DNA of 64,000 nt, taken from positions 186,001 through 250,000 of the forward strand of contig NZ_CP133480.1 of assembly GCF_031195445.1 (NCBI RefSeq), given 5' to 3'. Both the position numbers and the translations under genes were made by a program. Numbering within the stretch: position 1 is the first letter of the stretch; every line of letters begins with the position of its first letter. Below are positions 1 to 13,093 of this stretch, in pieces. Origin of the DNA: Acuticoccus sp. MNP-M23 (GTDB taxonomy: Bacteria > Pseudomonadota > Alphaproteobacteria > Rhizobiales > Amorphaceae). The notes beneath the pieces are model-generated. The model worked only from the letters and a program-made list of their open reading frames with translations. It was not told the DNA's origin and searched no databases.

Positions 1-264
1 CCGCAACGCGCCGATGGCCGGATCGGCGGACATTTCACGCTCCATCGTGCGCTCCAGACCGACCTGTCCGGCAAGCGGCAACCCCAGCATCAGTGCGGTG
101 TGGGCTTCGTTGGCGATCCGCCGGCTGACGGTCTCGAACCGCTCCCCCGTCAGCTCGACATAAGCGGCGCGCACGCTGGCATAATTGAGGTAAGCGCCGA
201 GCAGCAACGTCACCGCCAGAAGCGGCAGGAGCGAGGCAAGAATTGCCAGGGCGAGTGCGCGCAC
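1..264 (-). CDS. Membrane-anchored sensor protein, N-terminal fragment
   Basis: This gene is cut by the left edge of the window; only about 88 N-terminal residues are visible. The frame has no ATG. It opens with GTG at 264, with AAGGGG about six bases upstream; an in-frame GTG at 270 is the alternative. The product starts with one hydrophobic segment (about residues 3-25), followed by a predicted periplasmic helical stretch containing LGLPLAG and an ERTMERE segment. The same LG-hydrophobic-L pattern occurs in the sensor regions of the two genes read divergently from it (486-1226 and 1213-3090), so it probably has a related extracytoplasmic sensor domain. The output domain lies outside the window. 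The gene is divergent from the 486-5139 operon across about 220 bases that must hold both promoters. The function is inferred from architecture only. Confidence 0.6.
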   Translation of the reverse strand, partial: MRALALAILASLLPLLAVTLLLGAYLNYASVRAAYVELTGERFETVSRRIANEAHTALMLGLPLAGQVGLERTMEREMSADPAIGALR

Positions 265-485
265 GATCACCCCTTTTCGGCTTGGCGGCGTGTGGTCCGG
301 TCTGCCGGAAGCTTTCGTCGGCGGTGCAAGGCCACGGCGGGACAGGAATGCACACGACGGTCGCACGGCGTCTTCGCGTGCAGGCTTGCTCGCCACCCCC
401 GATCTTGTCAACGTCGTCACGGCGTGATGGGTGGAACCGAAGTTACGCACCTGACGGGCTCTCCCCCGGGTGCTAGAGAAACATC

Positions 486-1226
486 ATGGGTCGTTTTTCC
501 GTCTTAACTTCAACGGTTCTCATCGCCGTTCTGGGCGTCATCGCCTACACGCTCGTGGCAACGCGGACGATGGAACGGTCTGCCGCGCAGCTTGCGGCCG
601 CCCAGTTCGATTTCATTTTATCGCGCGCCGACGAGGCCATCGAACGCAATCTCCACCTCGGCCTGGCGCTGGGCGAGGTGAACCAGGCCTCCGCCGCGCT
701 GGAGCGTGCCATGTCGCGCTCGCCCTCCATTCTCGGTGCGGACGTGATCTCGGTTGGCGGGACGACCCTTTATTCAACCGATCGCGGCGCCCTTGGCGAA
801 CCCATTCCGGACCGGTGGCGCATCGCCATCAACGACACGCACAACGAGACCTGGCGCGCCGAAGCCTTCGATAGTGTGACCATGGGCCGGCCGGTCAGCA
901 ACGATTTCGGTCAGGTCGAAGGGTGGGCCGCCCTCATCATCGACCGCGACGCCCTCTCCGCTCCACTTTCCGAAGCGCCGCGCACGGTGCGGATGATGCT
1001 GCCGGCCATCATCCTCGTGGCTCTGGGAGCGCTGGTGATTGCGGCCGTCGTGATCCGCTGGTCCTACCGCAGGGCATGGATCGACCTGAAGACACCGCCC
1101 CCGCCGCCGGAGCGGCGCGATGCGTTCGATCAGGCCAATCTCCGCGCCGTCGAAAGCTGTGCAAACACCAATGCGGTGCTGGCCCAAGTCCGCACCGAAA
1201 TCCAGCGGCTCGATGCCATTGTCTGA
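486..1226 (+). CDS. Two-TM sensor-like membrane protein without output domain
   Basis: The product has 246 residues: a TM helix at about 7-25, an extracytoplasmic domain to about 163 and a second TM helix at about 165-188. A short cytoplasmic tail with a five-proline run follows (about 200-204). The periplasmic part carries an LGLALGE motif, then a helix with ALERAM and a beta-rich part, as in small Cache-like sensors. I see no kinase, GGDEF, HAMP-coupled or chemotaxis output domain, so it may be a sensory or regulatory subunit. It is the first gene of an operon with the sensor/MFS-like protein (14 bp overlap) and the SpoIIE phosphatase. The start is ATG 486; the Shine-Dalgarno sequence is weak. 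I do not recognise a named family. Confidence 0.75.
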   Translation: MGRFSVLTSTVLIAVLGVIAYTLVATRTMERSAAQLAAAQFDFILSRADEAIERNLHLGLALGEVNQASAALERAMSRSPSILGADVISVGGTTLYSTDRGALGEPIPDRWRIAINDTHNETWRAEAFDSVTMGRPVSNDFGQVEGWAALIIDRDALSAPLSEAPRTVRMMLPAIILVALGALVIAAVVIRWSYRRAWIDLKTPPPPPERRDAFDQANLRAVESCANTNAVLAQVRTEIQRLDAIV

Positions 1227-3090
1227 GCCAGTCCCGTCACATCAGGCCGGCCAGCGGGATCTTGCCGGTGCCCGCCGCGCCGACAGGGCTGCCTTCGTGC
1301 TGGCCCTCTCGGTCGGCGCGGTGGTGCTCGTGGCAACGCTCTGGCTTGCGACCATCATGATCCAGCCGCGCCTCCAGCGTCTGGAAGTGGCCTCCACCGA
1401 AGCGGCGCAGACCCTCGCCAGCGCCGTGGCCGAGGACTTTGCCGAGGCCGTCGCCCTTGGCATTCCCCTTCCCCAGATGCGCGGCGTCGATGATTATCTG
1501 AGCGCTGTCCTGCGGTCGGATAACCTTGTTTCCGCGGTTCTCGTGCTCGGTGCCGAGGAGCAACGCCTTTTCGCCGTTCCTGCGCGAACAGCGGTGCCGC
1601 GGCCGCTGGTGCGCGCGCAGATCATGGTTGATGACAAGGCGGTGGGCACCATCATCGCCGGTCCCTCGCCGCAGATCGCCGAAACGGCCAGACTGCACCT
1701 GCTGCGCTCTGCCATTGCGATGGCTCTTCTTGTGGGGCTGTTGTCCGGCATCCTGTTTCGCATCGCGCTTCTGGAGCGGTTGAACCTGCCGCAGGCGCGC
1801 CTTGGTGCCGCAGCCGGCGCTGTCGGCCGCGGAACGTTCGGCGAATTCACACCGCCGCGGGCCGGCGCGATGCTGGCGCTCGGGCGCAGTGCGGGGCTGC
1901 TGCTTGCCCCCATCCGGCGCGAATACCGCCGCCTCGTCGCCCTCACCGACGAGGTGCGCGCGCTCGACACGTTCGGCCGGGTCCGCACCGAAATCGACGA
2001 TGCGCTCGCTCCGCTGGCCGCCTACTCGTTCGACAGGCCGCGCAAGGGCCGGATGCTGAGCTCGGCAAATGCCCTGTGGTGGCCGTTCGCAGCGCTGGCT
2101 GCGCTGTTCACGCCGCGCGCCCTCGTTGCAAGCTTTGCCGCCGACCGGGTCGACACGGTCCATGTGCCGCTCGCCATCGGCAGTGCCGTCGGCGCCAATG
2201 CGCTGGGCGCCATTGTCGGCCTTGCGGTTGCATTCGCCCTTGGCGGACGCGCGCCAAAGCTGACGCCGCTCTTTTCCCTCCTGATTGCAGCCGCCGCCAT
2301 CGGCGTCACCGCCATTGTGCGCGACCCCTACATCTTCACCGCCCTCCAGTGCGCGGCCGGGCTGTTCGGCGCCATTGCGGTCGGCAGTACATTTTGCACC
2401 GAAGGCGCATTCGCCCGTCTCCCGTGGCGGGCCGGGATTGTGCTGATTGGTGCGGCCGCCGTGGGGCCCACCCTTGGCGCACTCCTGGCCGAAGCTGCGG
2501 GCCGCCGGATCAGTTTCGCCACCGTCGGCGTCCTCACCGCAATCATCGCGCTCACCGCAGCGGCCGGACCGCCGCGCCGTCGCGCAGCACGGCGGCCGCG
2601 CTGGGGCCTTCCGCTTTCCACGGCGCTCGGGCTTGTGTCGGCAAGTTTTGCGGTGGTCACCTGGATCGACATCAGCTTTTCCGCAGGCGCCATGCGGGAG
2701 GATTATGCAGGTCTCGGCTACGTTGCGGTTGTGACGGGCGCCGCGGCGTTTTTGCCCTTTGCCCTCTCCGGCCCGCCGCAGCGCGCCTTCAGCGTCGGCG
2801 GCGCCGCGCTGGTCGTGGCGCTGTTTGCAGCTGCACTCTTCGCCGAACCGGCGCTGCTTTCCACGCTCGGGGTTGCCGCGGTGGTGGGCCTTTCATTCGG
2901 TCTTGCGGTTCGGGGCGCCGGCAGCCGCGCTTTCGGCTTTGGCGGCGCAACCTGCCTTGCGGCCGGCACCCTCCTTGCCGGCGCGCTCGAAGCCGGTAAA
3001 TTCCTCGTCCCGGCGCTTGGCAGCACGCTCGCCCTGGCCATTGCGGTGGCCGCCCTTGTCGGCGTCATCGCCACCGTGCGGAGGCGCTAG
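1213..3090 (+). CDS. Sensor domain fused to MFS-like polytopic membrane domain
   Basis: The product has about 625 residues. ATG 1213 is chosen because it overlaps the upstream stop by 14 bp and places a TM helix (about 21-43) near the N terminus; in-frame codons further upstream would run deep into the preceding gene. The order is TM1, a periplasmic sensor region (about 44-155) with an LGIPLPQ motif, TM2 (about 160-186), an amphipathic HAMP-like linker, then about 11-12 hydrophobic segments from roughly residue 290 to the end. The polytopic part has an AAAVGPTLGALLAE stretch resembling motif C of MFS transporters and an AGRR loop. A receptor-like N terminus on a transporter-like C terminus is unusual; it could be a transceptor or a membrane receptor feeding the phosphatase gene that follows with no spacing. 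Substrate and role are unknown. Confidence 0.75.
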   Translation: MPLSEPVPSHQAGQRDLAGARRADRAAFVLALSVGAVVLVATLWLATIMIQPRLQRLEVASTEAAQTLASAVAEDFAEAVALGIPLPQMRGVDDYLSAVLRSDNLVSAVLVLGAEEQRLFAVPARTAVPRPLVRAQIMVDDKAVGTIIAGPSPQIAETARLHLLRSAIAMALLVGLLSGILFRIALLERLNLPQARLGAAAGAVGRGTFGEFTPPRAGAMLALGRSAGLLLAPIRREYRRLVALTDEVRALDTFGRVRTEIDDALAPLAAYSFDRPRKGRMLSSANALWWPFAALAALFTPRALVASFAADRVDTVHVPLAIGSAVGANALGAIVGLAVAFALGGRAPKLTPLFSLLIAAAAIGVTAIVRDPYIFTALQCAAGLFGAIAVGSTFCTEGAFARLPWRAGIVLIGAAAVGPTLGALLAEAAGRRISFATVGVLTAIIALTAAAGPPRRRAARRPRWGLPLSTALGLVSASFAVVTWIDISFSAGAMREDYAGLGYVAVVTGAAAFLPFALSGPPQRAFSVGGAALVVALFAAALFAEPALLSTLGVAAVVGLSFGLAVRGAGSRAFGFGGATCLAAGTLLAGALEAGKFLVPALGSTLALAIAVAALVGVIATVRRR

Positions 3091-5139
3091 ATGCTGCTGC
3101 GCACGCGCGTCACACTCCTGTTTGCCTGCGCGATCGTCCTGATCGGGCTTGCGCTTCTGGCTGTCGGGTTTTCCCAGCGCCAATATCAGGCAGACAGGCT
3201 GGGCGCCATTGCGGTCGCGCTGCAACGCTCCCTGTGGGAAAATCTGGTCGCCAACAAGATGGAAGACCTCGAACCCATCGCGACGGATCTTGCGGCGCGC
3301 ATTGCCACCCTTGCACCAAGCCTCTCGCGCGATGATGTGGGCAAGGTCATCGGCGATTCGCCCGCCGTCACCAGCGGCATCACGGTTCAGGTGGTCGACC
3401 TCGACGCCGAGCTCGTCAGCGCCAATGCGCCCCTGTTCCGCGCCGCCCCGCTCATCGATGCACGCGAGATTGCAACGCTCACCGGCCGCGAGCAGATCAT
3501 CGCGGGCCTGCGGCAGGATTCGCCGGACCGCTTCATGATTGCCGTGATCCGGCCCATCGTCATCCGCGGGGTCCTCGCCGGGGCTCTCAGCGTTGCCGTG
3601 GACGCAGCGGCAACGCTGCAAGAGCTGGCGCTCGACATCGGCGAACCGGCCTATCTTCTCTCCCCGCGCGGACGGCTTGCCACCGGAACGGACGTTGCCC
3701 TGTGGACCGAGGCCGCCGACCAGCTTCCGCGCCGCCCCCGCGAACCGCAATTCATCGCCACAGCGACCCGTGACTACTACGCCACCCCCATGACACTGAA
3801 CGACATCAGCGGCCGCCCCACCGGCACGCTTGTGGCGCTGCGCGATGTCACCGAGAGCCGCGAAGCCAGTGAGCGGGTGGAGCGCCTCGGGCTGATTGGC
3901 GTTGCGCTCGCCGGGCTCATCATTCTGGCCGGCGTCTATTTTCTGATGCGCAACGCATTCAAGCCGCTCGAAGGCGCCGTCGGCGCGCTGGATGCGCTGT
4001 CGAAAGGCGACCTGTCGCGCCCGCTCGAGTCGGAAGGCACCGGCGAGATCGCGCGGATCGGCGAAGCCGTCGCCGTGTTCCGCCGCAATGCCCAGCGCCT
4101 CAACGAGCAAGATGAGGGCATTGCCCGCCAGCGCCGGCGACAGGAGCGGGTCATCCGCCGCGAACTTCAGCGCCTTGCCGAGCTTCTGGACGACGAGGGC
4201 CGCGCGGAAATCCTCTCCGACCTTGCCGAAGTCCTGCCCGACGGCAAGGCCGGCGTCGCGCCGGCCAACACCGAGCTTGCCACGCTCGCCACCCTTCTCC
4301 AGCGCATGTCGACCCGCATTGCCGACCAGCAGACCCGGCTGACCGAGCTGATCACCGAGCTGAAGGCCGCCATCGTCACGCGCGCGCGCCTCGCCGCTCT
4401 CGAGCAGGAGCTCGACATTGCGCGCGAGTTGCAGACGAGCTTCCTGCCCAAGCCGCTGCCGCCGCACCCCTCGTTCGATGTCTTCGGGTTGATGGAGAGC
4501 GCCAAGGAAGTGGGCGGCGACTTCTTCGATATCTTCATGATCGACGAGAACCGGCTCGGCATGGTGATTGCCGACGTGTCGGGCAAGGGCGTCCCGGCCG
4601 CGATGTTCATGGCGATCACGCGCACGCTGATCCGGGCAACGGCGCTGACCTCTCCCTCCCCGGCGGCAACCGTTGGCGAGGTGAACAGCTTTCTGGCGGC
4701 GGACAACGAACAGATGATGTTCGTCACCCTCTTCCACGGCGTCCTGCATCTCGATACCGGCGAGTTCGCGTTCGCCAATGCGGGCCACAACCCGCCCTAT
4801 GTGCTGGCTGCCGGCGGGCTGGTCACGCTGCCGCGCGCCAGCGGCCCCGCCCTCGCGGTGGTGGAGGACATTGCCTACAAGGATGATAGTATCGTCCTTG
4901 CGCCGGGCTCCACATTCTTTGCCTACACCGACGGTGTGACGGAGGCGTTCTCCCGCGATGGCACCGAATACGGCACGGACAAGCTGGAAGCGTTCATCGT
5001 GGCGCACGCCGCCGAAACGCCGGCGGCCCTTTGCGCCGACGTGCGCGCCGATGTGCTGGCCTTCGAGGACGGCGCCGACCAGTTTGACGACGTGACATGC
5101 TTCGCGCTGCGCTACGACGGCGCTCCGCCCGCCGCCTAG
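3091..5139 (+). CDS. SpoIIE-family PP2C serine phosphatase with periplasmic sensor and HAMP
   Basis: The product has 682 residues: TM helix 8-27, an extracytoplasmic Cache-like domain about 30-260, TM about 267-286, HAMP about 287-340, a long coiled coil about 340-445, then a SpoIIE/PP2C domain about 445-675. Metal-binding signatures are intact: LQTSFLP at 448, GGDFFD at 475 (D477, D480), DVSGKG at 495, NAGHNPP at 563, YTDGVTEA at 612 and a QFDDVT motif near 664. Such enzymes dephosphorylate STAS anti-anti-sigma factors or similar phosphoproteins in partner switching; no STAS or anti-sigma gene is visible here. ATG 3091 follows directly on the upstream stop, with GGAGG in the upstream coding end. 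The stop codon shares the CTAG at 5136-5139 with the convergent cyclase gene. Confidence 0.9.
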   Translation: MLLRTRVTLLFACAIVLIGLALLAVGFSQRQYQADRLGAIAVALQRSLWENLVANKMEDLEPIATDLAARIATLAPSLSRDDVGKVIGDSPAVTSGITVQVVDLDAELVSANAPLFRAAPLIDAREIATLTGREQIIAGLRQDSPDRFMIAVIRPIVIRGVLAGALSVAVDAAATLQELALDIGEPAYLLSPRGRLATGTDVALWTEAADQLPRRPREPQFIATATRDYYATPMTLNDISGRPTGTLVALRDVTESREASERVERLGLIGVALAGLIILAGVYFLMRNAFKPLEGAVGALDALSKGDLSRPLESEGTGEIARIGEAVAVFRRNAQRLNEQDEGIARQRRRQERVIRRELQRLAELLDDEGRAEILSDLAEVLPDGKAGVAPANTELATLATLLQRMSTRIADQQTRLTELITELKAAIVTRARLAALEQELDIARELQTSFLPKPLPPHPSFDVFGLMESAKEVGGDFFDIFMIDENRLGMVIADVSGKGVPAAMFMAITRTLIRATALTSPSPAATVGEVNSFLAADNEQMMFVTLFHGVLHLDTGEFAFANAGHNPPYVLAAGGLVTLPRASGPALAVVEDIAYKDDSIVLAPGSTFFAYTDGVTEAFSRDGTEYGTDKLEAFIVAHAAETPAALCADVRADVLAFEDGADQFDDVTCFALRYDGAPPAA

Positions 5140-6431
5140 CCTTTTGCGAGCGGCGACCCGTTGTGGAACACCCCGTCCCATCCCGCTGGTGGCGGGGTGA
5201 CCGCGTAGGCCGTGGCGCGTGCCAGCATCAGCTTCGACGGGCCATCGTCCGGCTTGTCGGCCAGCAGCGCCACGAACCCGTCGCGCGCCGTGGCAAATTC
5301 TGCAGCGCGCATCATTTCCACCAGCGCCTCGTATCGCTGCGCGTGGGCCAGCGTTTCGGCCGCAACAGTGCCGGCCGGGCCGAGGATGGTGAAGATGCGC
5401 ACCGGCCGGTGCGAGCCGCGCACGGTGATCCGGTCCAGCTCGCGGAAGGAGAATACATCCGAAGCGCGGGCCTGCGTATCCTCGGAGACGACAACGCGCA
5501 CGCCATAAACCTTGGCCAGATCCTGGATCCGGGCGGCAAGGTTCACCGCGTTGCCGATGACGGTGTAGTTGCGGCTTTCGGGCGGGCCGATGTCGCCGGA
5601 CAGGACGTCGCCCGTGGCAACGCCGACCACAGCGTCGAGACGCTCGCCATTCTCCAGCCCCTCGGCCACCACTTCGGCGCGCAGGGCGTCCACCGCGGCA
5701 AGCTGCCCGAGGGCGGCGCGGCAGGCGTCGGCGGCCTGCGTGTCGGTGTTGGTGAAGGGCGGCCCCCAGCAGGCCATCGCCGCATCGCCGATGAACTTGT
5801 CGGTGATGCCGCCCGCCTCGCCGATGGGCCGCGTCACGGCGGTCAGGAATCGGTTGAGAAGGTCGGTCAGGCGCTCGGCTTCGAGGCGCTCTGACCAGCC
5901 GGTATAATCGCGCATGTCGATGAACGAGATCGTCATGTCGCCGCGCCGGCTCCGGGCCTCGTCCCCGCGGGACAGGATCTCGTCGACGATGCGCGGGTCC
6001 ACGTATTCGCCGAACAGGCGCTTCAGCTTGCGCCGCTTGCGCTGCTCGGTGGTGTCGGAGAAGACGACGACCACGCCGAAACGCTGCGTGGTCCCGTCCG
6101 GGTCGAGGTGGGTGAGAAAGCTGGACGAAACCCGCAGGTCCACCGGCTCGCCGGACTCGTCCGCTGCGGCGAGCACGATGTCGGTGCTGTGCACGACCTC
6201 GTGCTCGTAGACAGCGCGCAGCACAAGCTCGTTGAAGTCGTCGAACCGCTCTTCCAGCAGGAATTCCTCGGCGAACGCCTGCCCCAGAACATCGTCTGGC
6301 GCCTTGCCGAGAATTCGCCCGGCCGCCTCGTTGAAGGTGATGATGCGCCCGGTGAGGTCGATCGCGACGACACCGTCCCGCATCGAATCCAGGATGCGTT
6401 CCGAAAGCAGTGCGTCCCGATCCTGGCTCAT
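5136..6431 (-). CDS. PAS-domain class III adenylate cyclase
   Basis: The product has 431 residues and no TM segment: a PAS domain (about 8-130), a linker with a KRLFGEYVDP motif, then a class III cyclase catalytic domain (about 165-350). Catalytic features are present: metal aspartates D172 (FIDMRDY) and D216 (KFIGDA), purine-specifying K212 with T290 in NYTVIG, and transition-state residues N297 and R301 in VNLAAR. The Lys/Thr pair is typical of class IIIb adenylate cyclases. A C-terminal extension of about 80 residues has no recognised domain. The chosen ATG 6431 lies 7 bases after the ureG stop, so the gene can be co-transcribed with ureEFG. An in-frame upstream start lies inside ureG and lacks homology. 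Confidence 0.9.
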   Translation of the reverse strand: MSQDRDALLSERILDSMRDGVVAIDLTGRIITFNEAAGRILGKAPDDVLGQAFAEEFLLEERFDDFNELVLRAVYEHEVVHSTDIVLAAADESGEPVDLRVSSSFLTHLDPDGTTQRFGVVVVFSDTTEQRKRRKLKRLFGEYVDPRIVDEILSRGDEARSRRGDMTISFIDMRDYTGWSERLEAERLTDLLNRFLTAVTRPIGEAGGITDKFIGDAAMACWGPPFTNTDTQAADACRAALGQLAAVDALRAEVVAEGLENGERLDAVVGVATGDVLSGDIGPPESRNYTVIGNAVNLAARIQDLAKVYGVRVVVSEDTQARASDVFSFRELDRITVRGSHRPVRIFTILGPAGTVAAETLAHAQRYEALVEMMRAAEFATARDGFVALLADKPDDGPSKLMLARATAYAVTPPPAGWDGVFHNGSPLAKG

Positions 6432-11086: not shown

Positions 11087-13093
11087 TTATTGCGCCGTTG
11101 CCGGTTCGGCGGCTTCCGGTGCGGGCGTTTCGGCTTCCGCCGCCGGTTCTGCTGCTTCCGGCGCGGGCGTCTCGGCTTCCGCAGCCGGTTCGGCCGCTTC
11201 CGGTGCGGGCGTTTCGGCTTCCGCTGCCGGTTCTGCCGCTTCCGCTGCGGGCGTTTCGGCTTCCGCGGCCGGTTCGGCTGCTTCCGGTGCGGGCGTGTCG
11301 GCTTCCGCTGCCGGTTCTGCCGCTTCCGCTGCGGGCGTCTCGGCTTCCGCGGCCGGTTTGGCTGCTTCCGCCGCGGGCGTTTCGGCTTCTGCGGGCGCCT
11401 CGGCCGGTGCGCTGGCAGCGTTCGCCGGTGCGCTGCGCATGGCGTCAATCTGCGCCACCAGTGCGTCGCGCTGACGGGTCCAGAGTTCTGCGTCGCGCCG
11501 CAGGTCCTTGATCTCGTTTTCCAGCGTCGCGCGCCGTCCGCCAAGCTCGCTTTCGAGGTTGGAGAGCTGGCGGCGAACATCGTTCATTTCCGCGCCAACC
11601 CGCGCCACATCCTGCCGGGCGTCGGCACGCTCGGCCTCAATCGCGGCAACATCGGCCTCCAGCGTTGTCCGCTGCTCCTCGAGCTCTGCAATCTTTGCTT
11701 CGGCTTCAGCGCGTTCGGCCTTTGCGTCGGCAATGTTAGCAGCGCGCGCGGTCCGAGCGACCTCGGCATCGCTCGCCAACAGCGCAGCTTCCGTTTTGAT
11801 GCCCATCACCTCGGCATCCAGCGCGTCGCGTTCGGCCGTCAGCGCGACAATCTGCGCGTCCAGCTCCTCGACGTCTGCGCGCATCGCATCGGCCTTCGCC
11901 GCGTCGGCTTCCAGCGTCTCCTGCCGGGCCGTCAGTGTGGCCACGGCCTCTTCTGCGGCGCGCTGGTCCGCTTGGGCCTCATCGCGCGCGGTGCTGACGT
12001 CCGCCAGCTCGTCCTTGCGCTGCGCCAGCGCCTTGTCGAGCGCGGCGGACTCTGCCTGGAGTTCCGCCAACCGCGCTTCAGTCGATTTCTGCTCCTCGGC
12101 AAGCGCCGCAAGCGTCGTCTCCAGCGTCTGACGCTCGGTTGCCAGCGTCTCGCGCGCTTCGCTCACCCGTGTGCGCGCCTGCTCAAGTTCCGCCTTCACG
12201 CTGTCGTGCTCACGGTTCAGCGCTTCCAGCTGCGCTTTCGTCTCCGCCAGTTCGCTGTTGACCGCCTCTGCCTCCGCCTGCGCCTTTTCGACGGCAGCTT
12301 CCGCCTCGTTCTGCTGGGTCGCCGTTGCATCGAGCGTCGCGCGCGCTGCCTTCCGCTGGTCGGTGAGGTCGGCCAACTCGGCGGTAAGCTTCGCGGTCTG
12401 GTCTTCCAGCGCTGCCACCGCGGCGGTCTTCTCCGCTGCATCCTTCTGCGCAGCGGCAAATGCAGCCTGTGCGGTCGCCCGCTCCTCCTCCAGGCCCGCA
12501 ACCGCCGTCCGGGCGGCGGCCACATCCGCCTCGGCCGTCGCCCTGGCTTCGCTCAGCGCTTCATTTTCGGTCTTGAGCGCGGCCAGCGCGTCCTTTGCTG
12601 CGCGCGTTTCCGCCTGCACGCGCACCAGCTCGGCGCGGTCGGCATCGGCGGTCTCCAGCGCCGTCTCGGCCTCGGCCAGCGCATCGCGGGTGGACTTCAG
12701 CGCACCGGATGCGGCCTGTGCATCAGCCTGCAGCGAGGCAATTTCCGAGGTGATCGCCCCGTGCTCGTCCTGCCGCGCATCAAGAGCCGCAGACGCGTCC
12801 TCGATCCCCTGCTTCAACGTTTCAAGCTCGGCGGTTGCCGCTTCAATATCGGCGCTCAGCTGATCGCGCGCGGCGGTGATAGTGCCAACCTCCGCCTTGA
12901 TTGCATCCAGCGAGCCCGCTTCGCCCTTCAGCTCGTCGATCTGGGAAGTGAGCTGGGCAACCTGATCGTCAGCATCCAGCGTCAGGGTCGCCACCTGGTC
13001 CCGAAGCGCTTCGCGTTCCTGGAAGAAGTAAACGGCCGCAGCCAATGAGGCCACGGTGACGAGTGCAAGCACGATCGTGAAGAAGCGAGACAT
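11087..13093 (-). CDS. Membrane-anchored long coiled-coil protein with Ala/Glu/Pro repeat tail
   Basis: The product has 668 residues. One N-terminal TM helix (about 5-23) is followed by about 530 residues of nearly uninterrupted heptad-type coiled coil rich in Ala, Glu, Gln, Asp and Arg. The tail is an Ala/Glu/Pro low-complexity segment of seven 14-residue repeats (consensus PAAEAETPAPEAAE). No enzymatic motif is visible. The pattern suggests a structural or tethering protein at the inner membrane; orientation cannot be decided. It sits between the ligase gene and the divergent helicase gene, but it has its own leader (about 180 bases shared with the helicase) and a stem-loop after its stop, so it may be transcribed independently. 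I do not recognise the family. Confidence 0.8.
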   Translation of the reverse strand: MSRFFTIVLALVTVASLAAAVYFFQEREALRDQVATLTLDADDQVAQLTSQIDELKGEAGSLDAIKAEVGTITAARDQLSADIEAATAELETLKQGIEDASAALDARQDEHGAITSEIASLQADAQAASGALKSTRDALAEAETALETADADRAELVRVQAETRAAKDALAALKTENEALSEARATAEADVAAARTAVAGLEEERATAQAAFAAAQKDAAEKTAAVAALEDQTAKLTAELADLTDQRKAARATLDATATQQNEAEAAVEKAQAEAEAVNSELAETKAQLEALNREHDSVKAELEQARTRVSEARETLATERQTLETTLAALAEEQKSTEARLAELQAESAALDKALAQRKDELADVSTARDEAQADQRAAEEAVATLTARQETLEADAAKADAMRADVEELDAQIVALTAERDALDAEVMGIKTEAALLASDAEVARTARAANIADAKAERAEAEAKIAELEEQRTTLEADVAAIEAERADARQDVARVGAEMNDVRRQLSNLESELGGRRATLENEIKDLRRDAELWTRQRDALVAQIDAMRSAPANAASAPAEAPAEAETPAAEAAKPAAEAETPAAEAAEPAAEADTPAPEAAEPAAEAETPAAEAAEPAAEAETPAPEAAEPAAEAETPAPEAAEPAAEAETPAPEAAEPATAQ
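11105..11398 (-). repeat. Seven tandem 42-bp coding repeats
   Basis: About seven copies of a 42-bp unit encode the 14-residue PAAEAETPAPEAAE-type repeat at the C terminus of the coiled-coil protein. Copies are similar at DNA level, differing mainly at the Pro/Ala position and in synonymous changes, so copy number could vary between strains by slippage or recombination. Confidence 0.85.

Follow-up and report, generated by a model that had tools for sequence, protein, structure and literature searches.

The DNA considered here (the window) is a stretch of 64,000 nucleotides from Acuticoccus sp. MNP-M23, corresponding to C1:186001-250000 of the 5.16-Mb genome, whose left end carries a locus in which genes for membrane sensors are grouped around the gene of a SpoIIE-type phosphatase. 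The locus continues to the left of the window and was followed in the adjoining 12 kb (L004); genes in the flanks of loci were called from open reading frames (ORFs) by a heuristic and not by a gene finder; a window position equals the L004 position minus 12000, and negative coordinates denote sites to the left of the window edge. In all probability the locus constitutes a single functional signalling module.

On the plus strand of the window lie sen_R (486-1226), encoding a 246-amino-acid protein with two transmembrane (TM) segments and a Cache-type periplasmic domain but without an output domain; senMFS_R (1213-3090), encoding a 625-amino-acid protein in which a sensor precedes a degenerate major facilitator superfamily (MFS) domain; and the gene of a 682-amino-acid SpoIIE/PP2C phosphatase (3091-5139; Pfam SpoIIE 166.3 bits) endowed with an N-terminal sensor and a HAMP domain (27.1 bits). 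Convergent with the latter, on the minus strand, is the gene of a 431-amino-acid protein composed of PAS and a class III nucleotide cyclase domain (5136-6431; Pfam Guanylate_cyc 66 bits). Divergent from sen_R and read from the minus strand is sen_L (-410..264; L004:11590-12264), the start of which falls inside the window (1..264); it specifies a two-TM sensor of 224 amino acids, or of 286 if an upstream GTG is used, that as a whole protein matches no Pfam family. The first-pass annotation had placed the three plus-strand sensor and phosphatase ORFs and a minus-strand gene at the left edge, and these coordinates, like the SpoIIE identity of the third ORF, hold; on the other hand, the output domain sought to the left of the edge for the truncated gene is rejected, as sen_L ends after 224 amino acids.

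Further left, still on the minus strand, sen_L is followed by the gene of a second sensor-MFS protein, senMFS_L (-2407..-407; L004 9593-11593; MFS_1 111.6 bits), with the result that sen_L and senMFS_L on one strand and sen_R and senMFS_R on the other form a mirror-image arrangement. Next come, on the same minus strand, the genes of a periplasmic binding protein of the PF04392 family (-3396..-2404; L004 8604-9596; 83.5 bits) and of a GNAT enzyme (-4073..-3393; L004 7927-8607; 33.8 bits), and then, on the plus strand, those of an RsbW-type kinase (-4858..-4439; L004 7142-7561; HATPase_c_2 69.6 bits) and of a STAS protein (-4442..-4098; L004 7558-7902; STAS 70.8 bits). Adjoining genes of the locus often overlap by a few bases, in an operon-like manner. 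The earlier statement that neither a STAS nor an anti-sigma gene is in view is correct within the window, but their absence from the locus is rejected, both the STAS protein and the kinase being encoded about 4.1-4.9 kb to the left of its edge.

The likeness of the sensors had been proposed from a short LG-x-x-L motif, which is located at residue 60 in sen_L, 58 in sen_R and 82 in senMFS_R, whose N-terminus is longer; a fourth and looser copy (YGIPV) is found at residue 61 of senMFS_L. This likeness is more than chance, because profile-profile comparison (hhalign) of the periplasmic pieces, based on alignments of 22 loci, yields probabilities of 96.1-99.7% for all six sensor pairs, compared with 0.17-0.42% when the four sensor pieces are matched to the binding protein as a control. 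Against it stands the low single-sequence similarity of some pairs, BLASTP giving E 1e-6 for sen_L and sen_R, E 0.005 for senMFS_L and senMFS_R and no match between the window's sen_R and senMFS_R. The predicted model of sen_R (mean predicted local distance difference test score, pLDDT, 86) has the Cache/PDC fold: with a threshold of E 0.001 it has 28 PDB matches, a large share of which are sensor domains of the Cache type, and those of CitA, DcuS, DctB, KinD and WalK are among those recovered. By their profile relation to one another and to sen_R, the periplasmic pieces of sen_L, senMFS_L and senMFS_R are probably likewise of the Cache type. Judged on these sequence profiles, the four periplasmic sensors of the locus are paralogous. 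Thus, the relatedness of the sensors predicted by the first-pass annotation is real, structure models covering sen_R and senMFS_R, but their number is four and not three, senMFS_L lying to the left of the window. As to the sensor of the SpoIIE protein itself, comparison of its periplasmic piece with the other four gave probabilities ranging from 3.9 to 88%; with so doubtful a relation it was not counted as a fifth member of the array. Fused relatives of this sensor match dCache profiles.

Both sensor-MFS proteins hold an MFS domain, the left one as judged by its Pfam score, which is above cut-off, and the right one as judged by the fold of its model. The MFS part of senMFS_R has no Pfam match, but the predicted model (mean pLDDT 81) resembles solved MFS transporters, NorA and VMAT2 being among its best 50 matches, so that the MFS-like character assigned earlier to this protein stands. 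The two domains differ in conservation: in alignments of 22 rows, 100 of 393 columns are conserved at ≥90% in the MFS domain of senMFS_L and 14 of 339 in that of senMFS_R, and charged columns among those so conserved are 17 and 5, respectively. From these patterns senMFS_L may still be a transporter, whereas the MFS domain of senMFS_R appears relaxed or degenerate and perhaps serves as a receptor.

Conservation of the locus was examined in a near set of 61 genomes, made up of that of the window and those of 60 relatives. SpoIIE was found at E 1e-20 in 15 of them, in 11 over nearly its full length, and sen_R has matches in exactly those 11; a genome of the same genus (G001; 89% complete, in 550 contigs) has neither. 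A scan of contigs gave 16 loci, five of which were contigs already included, and the 11 new ones together with the 11 of the near set make up 22 distinct loci; the genera represented in the scan include Acuticoccus, Amorphus, Mesorhizobium, Chelatococcus, Jiella and Albimonas. In all 22 loci the parts that were detected are arranged in one and the same order, each with the same orientation. The GNAT enzyme, the binding protein and the four sensors are present in 22, SpoIIE in 21, the kinase in 19 and STAS in 18, and the only locus without SpoIIE (L050) is on a contig that ends before its slot. The conservation of the sensor set with the phosphatase that had been anticipated is therefore borne out in the relatives.

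At the level of the class, a senMFS_L profile applied at E 1e-60 recovered 20 of 385 genomes, the window's own included. The 19 other loci, one of which (G306) belongs to the same genome as L051 and is already among the 22, contain the trio consisting of a sensor, senMFS_L and the binding protein in 17 cases, and the contigs of the remaining two measure 3.5 and 6.2 kb; SpoIIE is found in 10, the kinase in seven and STAS in six. As read from gene content, the trio is the constant part of the locus and the outputs vary among lineages.

The components of a partner-switching system, namely a PP2C phosphatase, a STAS protein and an RsbW-type kinase, are all recognizable at the locus by sequence, and their critical motifs are intact: GGD, DVSGKG, TDG and DD are kept in 21 of 21 SpoIIE proteins, YISSAGLR, the region of the phosphorylatable serine, in 18 of 18 STAS proteins, and E45, N49, D79 and GGLG, belonging to the N-box and ATP-lid motifs, are invariant in the nine aligned kinases. 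The SpoIIE protein has no Pfam match to a receiver domain, carrying the sensor and HAMP instead. STAS was undetected at four of the 22 loci (L028, L030, L044 and L049); in the case of L028 and L030 a kinase-STAS pair is located elsewhere in the genome, and at L044 and L049 no STAS was found by profile within the locus. A second gene with a SpoIIE domain occurs in the window's genome about 110 kb to the right of the module (match at C1:301746-302234), surrounded by several HATPase_c_2 matches (C1:300633-303100, beyond the window).

Class III cyclases are the other recurrent companions of the switch. The PAS-cyclase lies beside SpoIIE in 12 of the 22 loci, and a second class III protein of unrelated architecture (cyc2; above the Pfam cut-off in the three scanned) lies directly upstream of the kinase in nine; some class III cyclase is present at 21 loci, the exception being L049. 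Orthologues of the PAS-cyclase with at least 54% identity occur in 10 of the 61 genomes, every one at the module, and the next matches among those listed do not exceed 38% identity. In enzymes of this class two aspartates hold the metal, a lysine and a threonine are of the adenine-type and an asparagine and an arginine are catalytic; all these residues are present in 12 of 12 PAS-cyclases, which by this token fit class III adenylate cyclases. As to a GGDEF protein as output of the locus, the conserved cyclases are of class III and a single GGDEF gene was noticed, next to a displaced kinase-STAS pair, no GGDEF profile having been run against the full set of loci.

Natural fusions give an indication of how these parts may be connected. 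In two genomes of one genus (G424 and G347) a sensor of the senMFS kind is joined in frame to a nearly whole SpoIIE, within an open frame of 973-987 codons from stop to stop. Because of this fusion it is favoured that sensor and phosphatase work together, and the idea that the sensors jointly control one phosphatase gains support to this extent, from another genus, although the set on which it was built lacked the binding protein, the GNAT enzyme, the fourth sensor, STAS, the kinase and the cyclase. In two genomes of another genus (G223 and G321) the mirror-image locus is kept but the slot of SpoIIE is filled by a 727-amino-acid sensor-HAMP-cyclase protein; its residues 1-285, a sensor of the SpoIIE type, are 32.6% identical to the window's SpoIIE (E 3e-31), and after them come HAMP and, in place of the phosphatase domain, a class III cyclase domain. 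No STAS orthologue was found genome-wide at E 1e-8 in either genome, and other SpoIIE proteins, of lower score, occur elsewhere in both.

The origin of the fused cyclase was traced in a tree of 38 rows comprising 12 PAS-cyclases, the two fusions, one CHASE2 cyclase of L085 and a further 23 cyclases taken from four genomes; these 23 derive from 30 fetched loci, two module copies having been omitted, one not found by profile and four dropped for their low scores. The fusion cyclases group with the stand-alone PAS-cyclases, apart from the 23 and that of L085 (100/100), and the best BLAST matches agree, it being understood that the tree leaves out the nine cyc2 rows and that wider sampling might place other cyclases between the fusions and the PAS-cyclases. 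The simplest account of these sequences, with a genome-wide search covering STAS and SpoIIE, is that a single pathway starts at the sensor and finishes at the cyclase, the relay having been dropped on fusion.

The nature of the ligand can be approached through the binding protein and the neighbouring genes. The binding protein, whose N-terminal region shows an RR pair in 21 of 22 cases (by eye), is above the cut-off of PF04392 but scores 83.2 bits with the NCBIfam TrpX tryptophan equivalog, whose cut-off is 390. Its family includes tyrosine binders as well as, via NCBIfam, a named tryptophan binder. An alanine-racemase-like gene, Pfam-confirmed in the three cases scanned, is inserted between GNAT and STAS in 12 of the 22 loci (L036, L037, L043-L049, L051-L053) but in none of those of Acuticoccus and Amorphus. 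Other genes of the racemase family do exist in the window's genome, and the closest of them share about 30-34% identity with the inserted gene; present in only 12 of 22 loci, the latter was not adopted as an essential part. A PanB-like gene is found by Pfam at L079, and L075 has what looks by eye like a gene of the same sort. One may speculate that the racemase, PanB-like and GNAT neighbours fit an amino-acid-like ligand. Two further observations concern this region in other genomes: in G163, a genome without SpoIIE or listed class III cyclase matches, another binding-protein gene, whose product belongs to the TAXI-like NMT1_3 family, comes after the trio (L090 7187-8167), and in G424 two ORFs that look alike by eye (L088 11804-12841 and 13917-14945) stand on either side of the binding-protein gene.

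Other features of the region are a large histidine kinase comprising a receiver and more than one PAS domain (L004 1591-5046, about 7 to 10.4 kb to the left of the window), which is not among the printed flanking clusters common to the loci, and, on the minus strand of the window (11087-13093), a gene for a 668-amino-acid coiled-coil-like protein containing a tandem repeat of period 42 or 84 (11100-11406) that encodes Ala/Glu/Pro-rich repeats.

Several known systems share elements with this locus. Phosphatase, STAS protein and kinase belong to the same families as RsbU/V/W and SpoIIE/AA/AB of Bacillus, but here the phosphatase is a membrane sensor-HAMP protein accompanied by a sensor array, and no sigma-factor gene is recognized in the conserved set. 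A periplasmic binding protein acts on a membrane sensor in TorT-TorS and LuxP-LuxQ; that of the module belongs to PF04392, its contact with the sensors is putative and there is no histidine kinase in the module proper. UhpC is an MFS protein used for sensing, which acts on a histidine kinase, and in this respect resembles the sensor-MFS proteins, except that these have a Cache domain and UhpC is not known to have one. The closest parallel is SiaABCD of Pseudomonas aeruginosa, which has a membrane PP2C phosphatase (SiaA), a kinase (SiaB), a STAS protein (SiaC) and a cyclase output (SiaD) and in which, according to the part of the article available, unphosphorylated SiaC activates the diguanylate cyclase SiaD whereas phosphorylation blocks both binding and activation (PMC8457831). 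Indeed, SiaA is the best NCBIfam match of SpoIIE, albeit at 59.1 bits against a cut-off of 700. SiaD, however, is a GGDEF protein and the output proposed here is a class III cyclase; furthermore, neither a binding protein nor Cache two-TM or MFS sensors are named for SiaABCD in that part (PMC8457831). RbaV/RbaW/RbaY of Rhodobacter capsulatus is an alphaproteobacterial set of STAS protein, kinase and PP2C phosphatase (PMC3999984), but RbaY has an N-terminal receiver domain in place of sensor and HAMP, rbaY is not part of the operon, which consists of rbaV and rbaW, and, in the sections available, a sensor/MFS/binding-protein set is not mentioned. A word search of the main text of a STAS review (PMC8256260) found no mention of cyclases, and no description of the module was found in the literature, most subscription journals and preprints being outside the search. 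In terms of its sequence families the module represents a partner switch that has acquired a new front end and that probably acts on a target of a new kind.

Gene order and the natural fusions, together with conserved parts whose catalytic motifs are intact in the sequences, suggest the following wiring. The exported PF04392 protein would bind a small solute and present it to the Cache-type domains of the four membrane proteins; the state of this sensor array would set the activity of the membrane SpoIIE phosphatase, which has its own sensor and HAMP; SpoIIE would dephosphorylate the STAS protein, to be rephosphorylated by the RsbW-type kinase; and the phosphorylation state of STAS, or the free kinase, would switch the class III cyclase, a step modelled on the SiaABCD precedent (PMC8457831, as far as available). 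The output would be a cyclic-nucleotide signal instead of, or besides, a sigma factor. The complete chain, from a sensor array fed by the binding protein through the partner switch to the cyclase, has in our estimate an even chance of being correct. A broader proposal is advanced tentatively, its chances being somewhat below even: this would be an undescribed system in which a switch of phosphatase, STAS protein and kinase, with a class III cyclase output, is driven by a periplasmic binding protein together with a pair of Cache/MFS proteins, one of them transporter-like and the other receptor-like, such that a solute outside the cell sets the level of cyclic nucleotide inside; the lineages with a sensor-cyclase fusion would have eliminated the switch and connected a sensor of this kind directly to that cyclase. 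The observation from which the analysis started is confirmed, and the interpretation then given to it, right in direction but covering half of the locus, is supported in part.

A number of data weigh against this proposal. A cyclase is linked in five of the 19 class-level loci, one of the five belonging to a genome already counted and several contigs being short, and in several lineages the switch has no linked cyclase; at L049 kinase, STAS and cyclase are all missing from the locus. In G005 and G007 the kinase-STAS pair is displaced from the locus, the two pairs having no neighbour in common: directly upstream of that of G007, on the same strand, is a gene for 5TM-5TMR_LYT plus GGDEF (L073 6912-8006), whereas beside that of G005 neither a class III cyclase nor a GGDEF gene was recognized. 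The locus of G218 has SpoIIE, STAS and kinase in a genome without a class III cyclase among the matches listed and, for this reason, its output must differ; nor does G163 have a class III cyclase among the matches listed, and G426, G163 and G410 have neither a SpoIIE nor a STAS orthologue. With outputs varying in this way, the cyclase is not a universal output. At the position of the adenine-type lysine before the second metal aspartate, cyc2 has asparagine in eight and glutamate in one of nine sequences, the usual lysine in none, and because the base-recognition residues differ from the usual ones its product is left open. Finally, each kind of fusion is seen in two genomes of a single genus, and linkage in the relatives is not independent evidence.

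This last point is also what speaks for the genes being neighbours without a common function that were kept by descent, many of the loci coming from related genera with synteny partly inherited; this explanation is nevertheless highly improbable, for the layout survives pairwise sensor identities as low as about 20%, SpoIIE and sen_R coincide in their distribution (11 of 61 genomes) and the parts are fused in other lineages. The locus might instead be an ordinary sigma-factor partner switch, in which the kinase holds a sigma factor encoded elsewhere until STAS releases it, with the cyclases as neighbours working in parallel. Kinase and STAS do belong to Pfam and NCBIfam families named for sigma control, G218 would be accommodated and, in the part of the report available, the target suggested for the R. 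capsulatus set is a sigma factor not yet identified, even if RbaW bound none of those tested (PMC3999984). This alternative carries some weight but is unlikely: no sigma-factor gene was recognized by eye among the flanking ORFs common to at least three loci, no sigma-factor profile having been run, and the cyclase fusion in the slot of SpoIIE, in genomes where STAS is absent, would be left unexplained.

The constancy of the trio in the class-level loci and its retention in G426 and G163, where neither SpoIIE nor a STAS orthologue was found, raise a further alternative: the core would be an MFS transporter that depends on a binding protein, consisting of the latter, the two-TM protein and the permease, and some lineages would have attached signalling outputs to it. 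The strong conservation of the senMFS_L MFS domain, charged residues included, agrees with this, as does the report, partly available, of binding-protein dependence in a secondary transporter outside the classical TRAP (tripartite ATP-independent periplasmic) family (PMC12344293). As a complete explanation it is unlikely, in that the two-TM sensors without a permease, the degenerate right MFS domain and the conserved phosphatase, kinase, STAS and cyclase find no place in it, but it is compatible with the signalling proposal, as the complex could be a transporter and a receptor together.

If the proposal of a binding-protein-fed array acting through the switch on a cyclase is correct, a partner switch having a class III cyclase as its target would take its place beside the known diguanylate-cyclase case, and one and the same sensor array would be available in three natural arrangements, which amount to unusually clear experiments of nature: with the relay, as a sensor-phosphatase fusion and with a fused cyclase substituted for the relay. 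The locus would also offer a tractable instance of sensing by MFS domains, one copy being conserved and its neighbour degenerate, and perhaps of a binding protein serving an MFS protein, and it would allow one to ask why a three-protein relay persists where direct fusion occurs.

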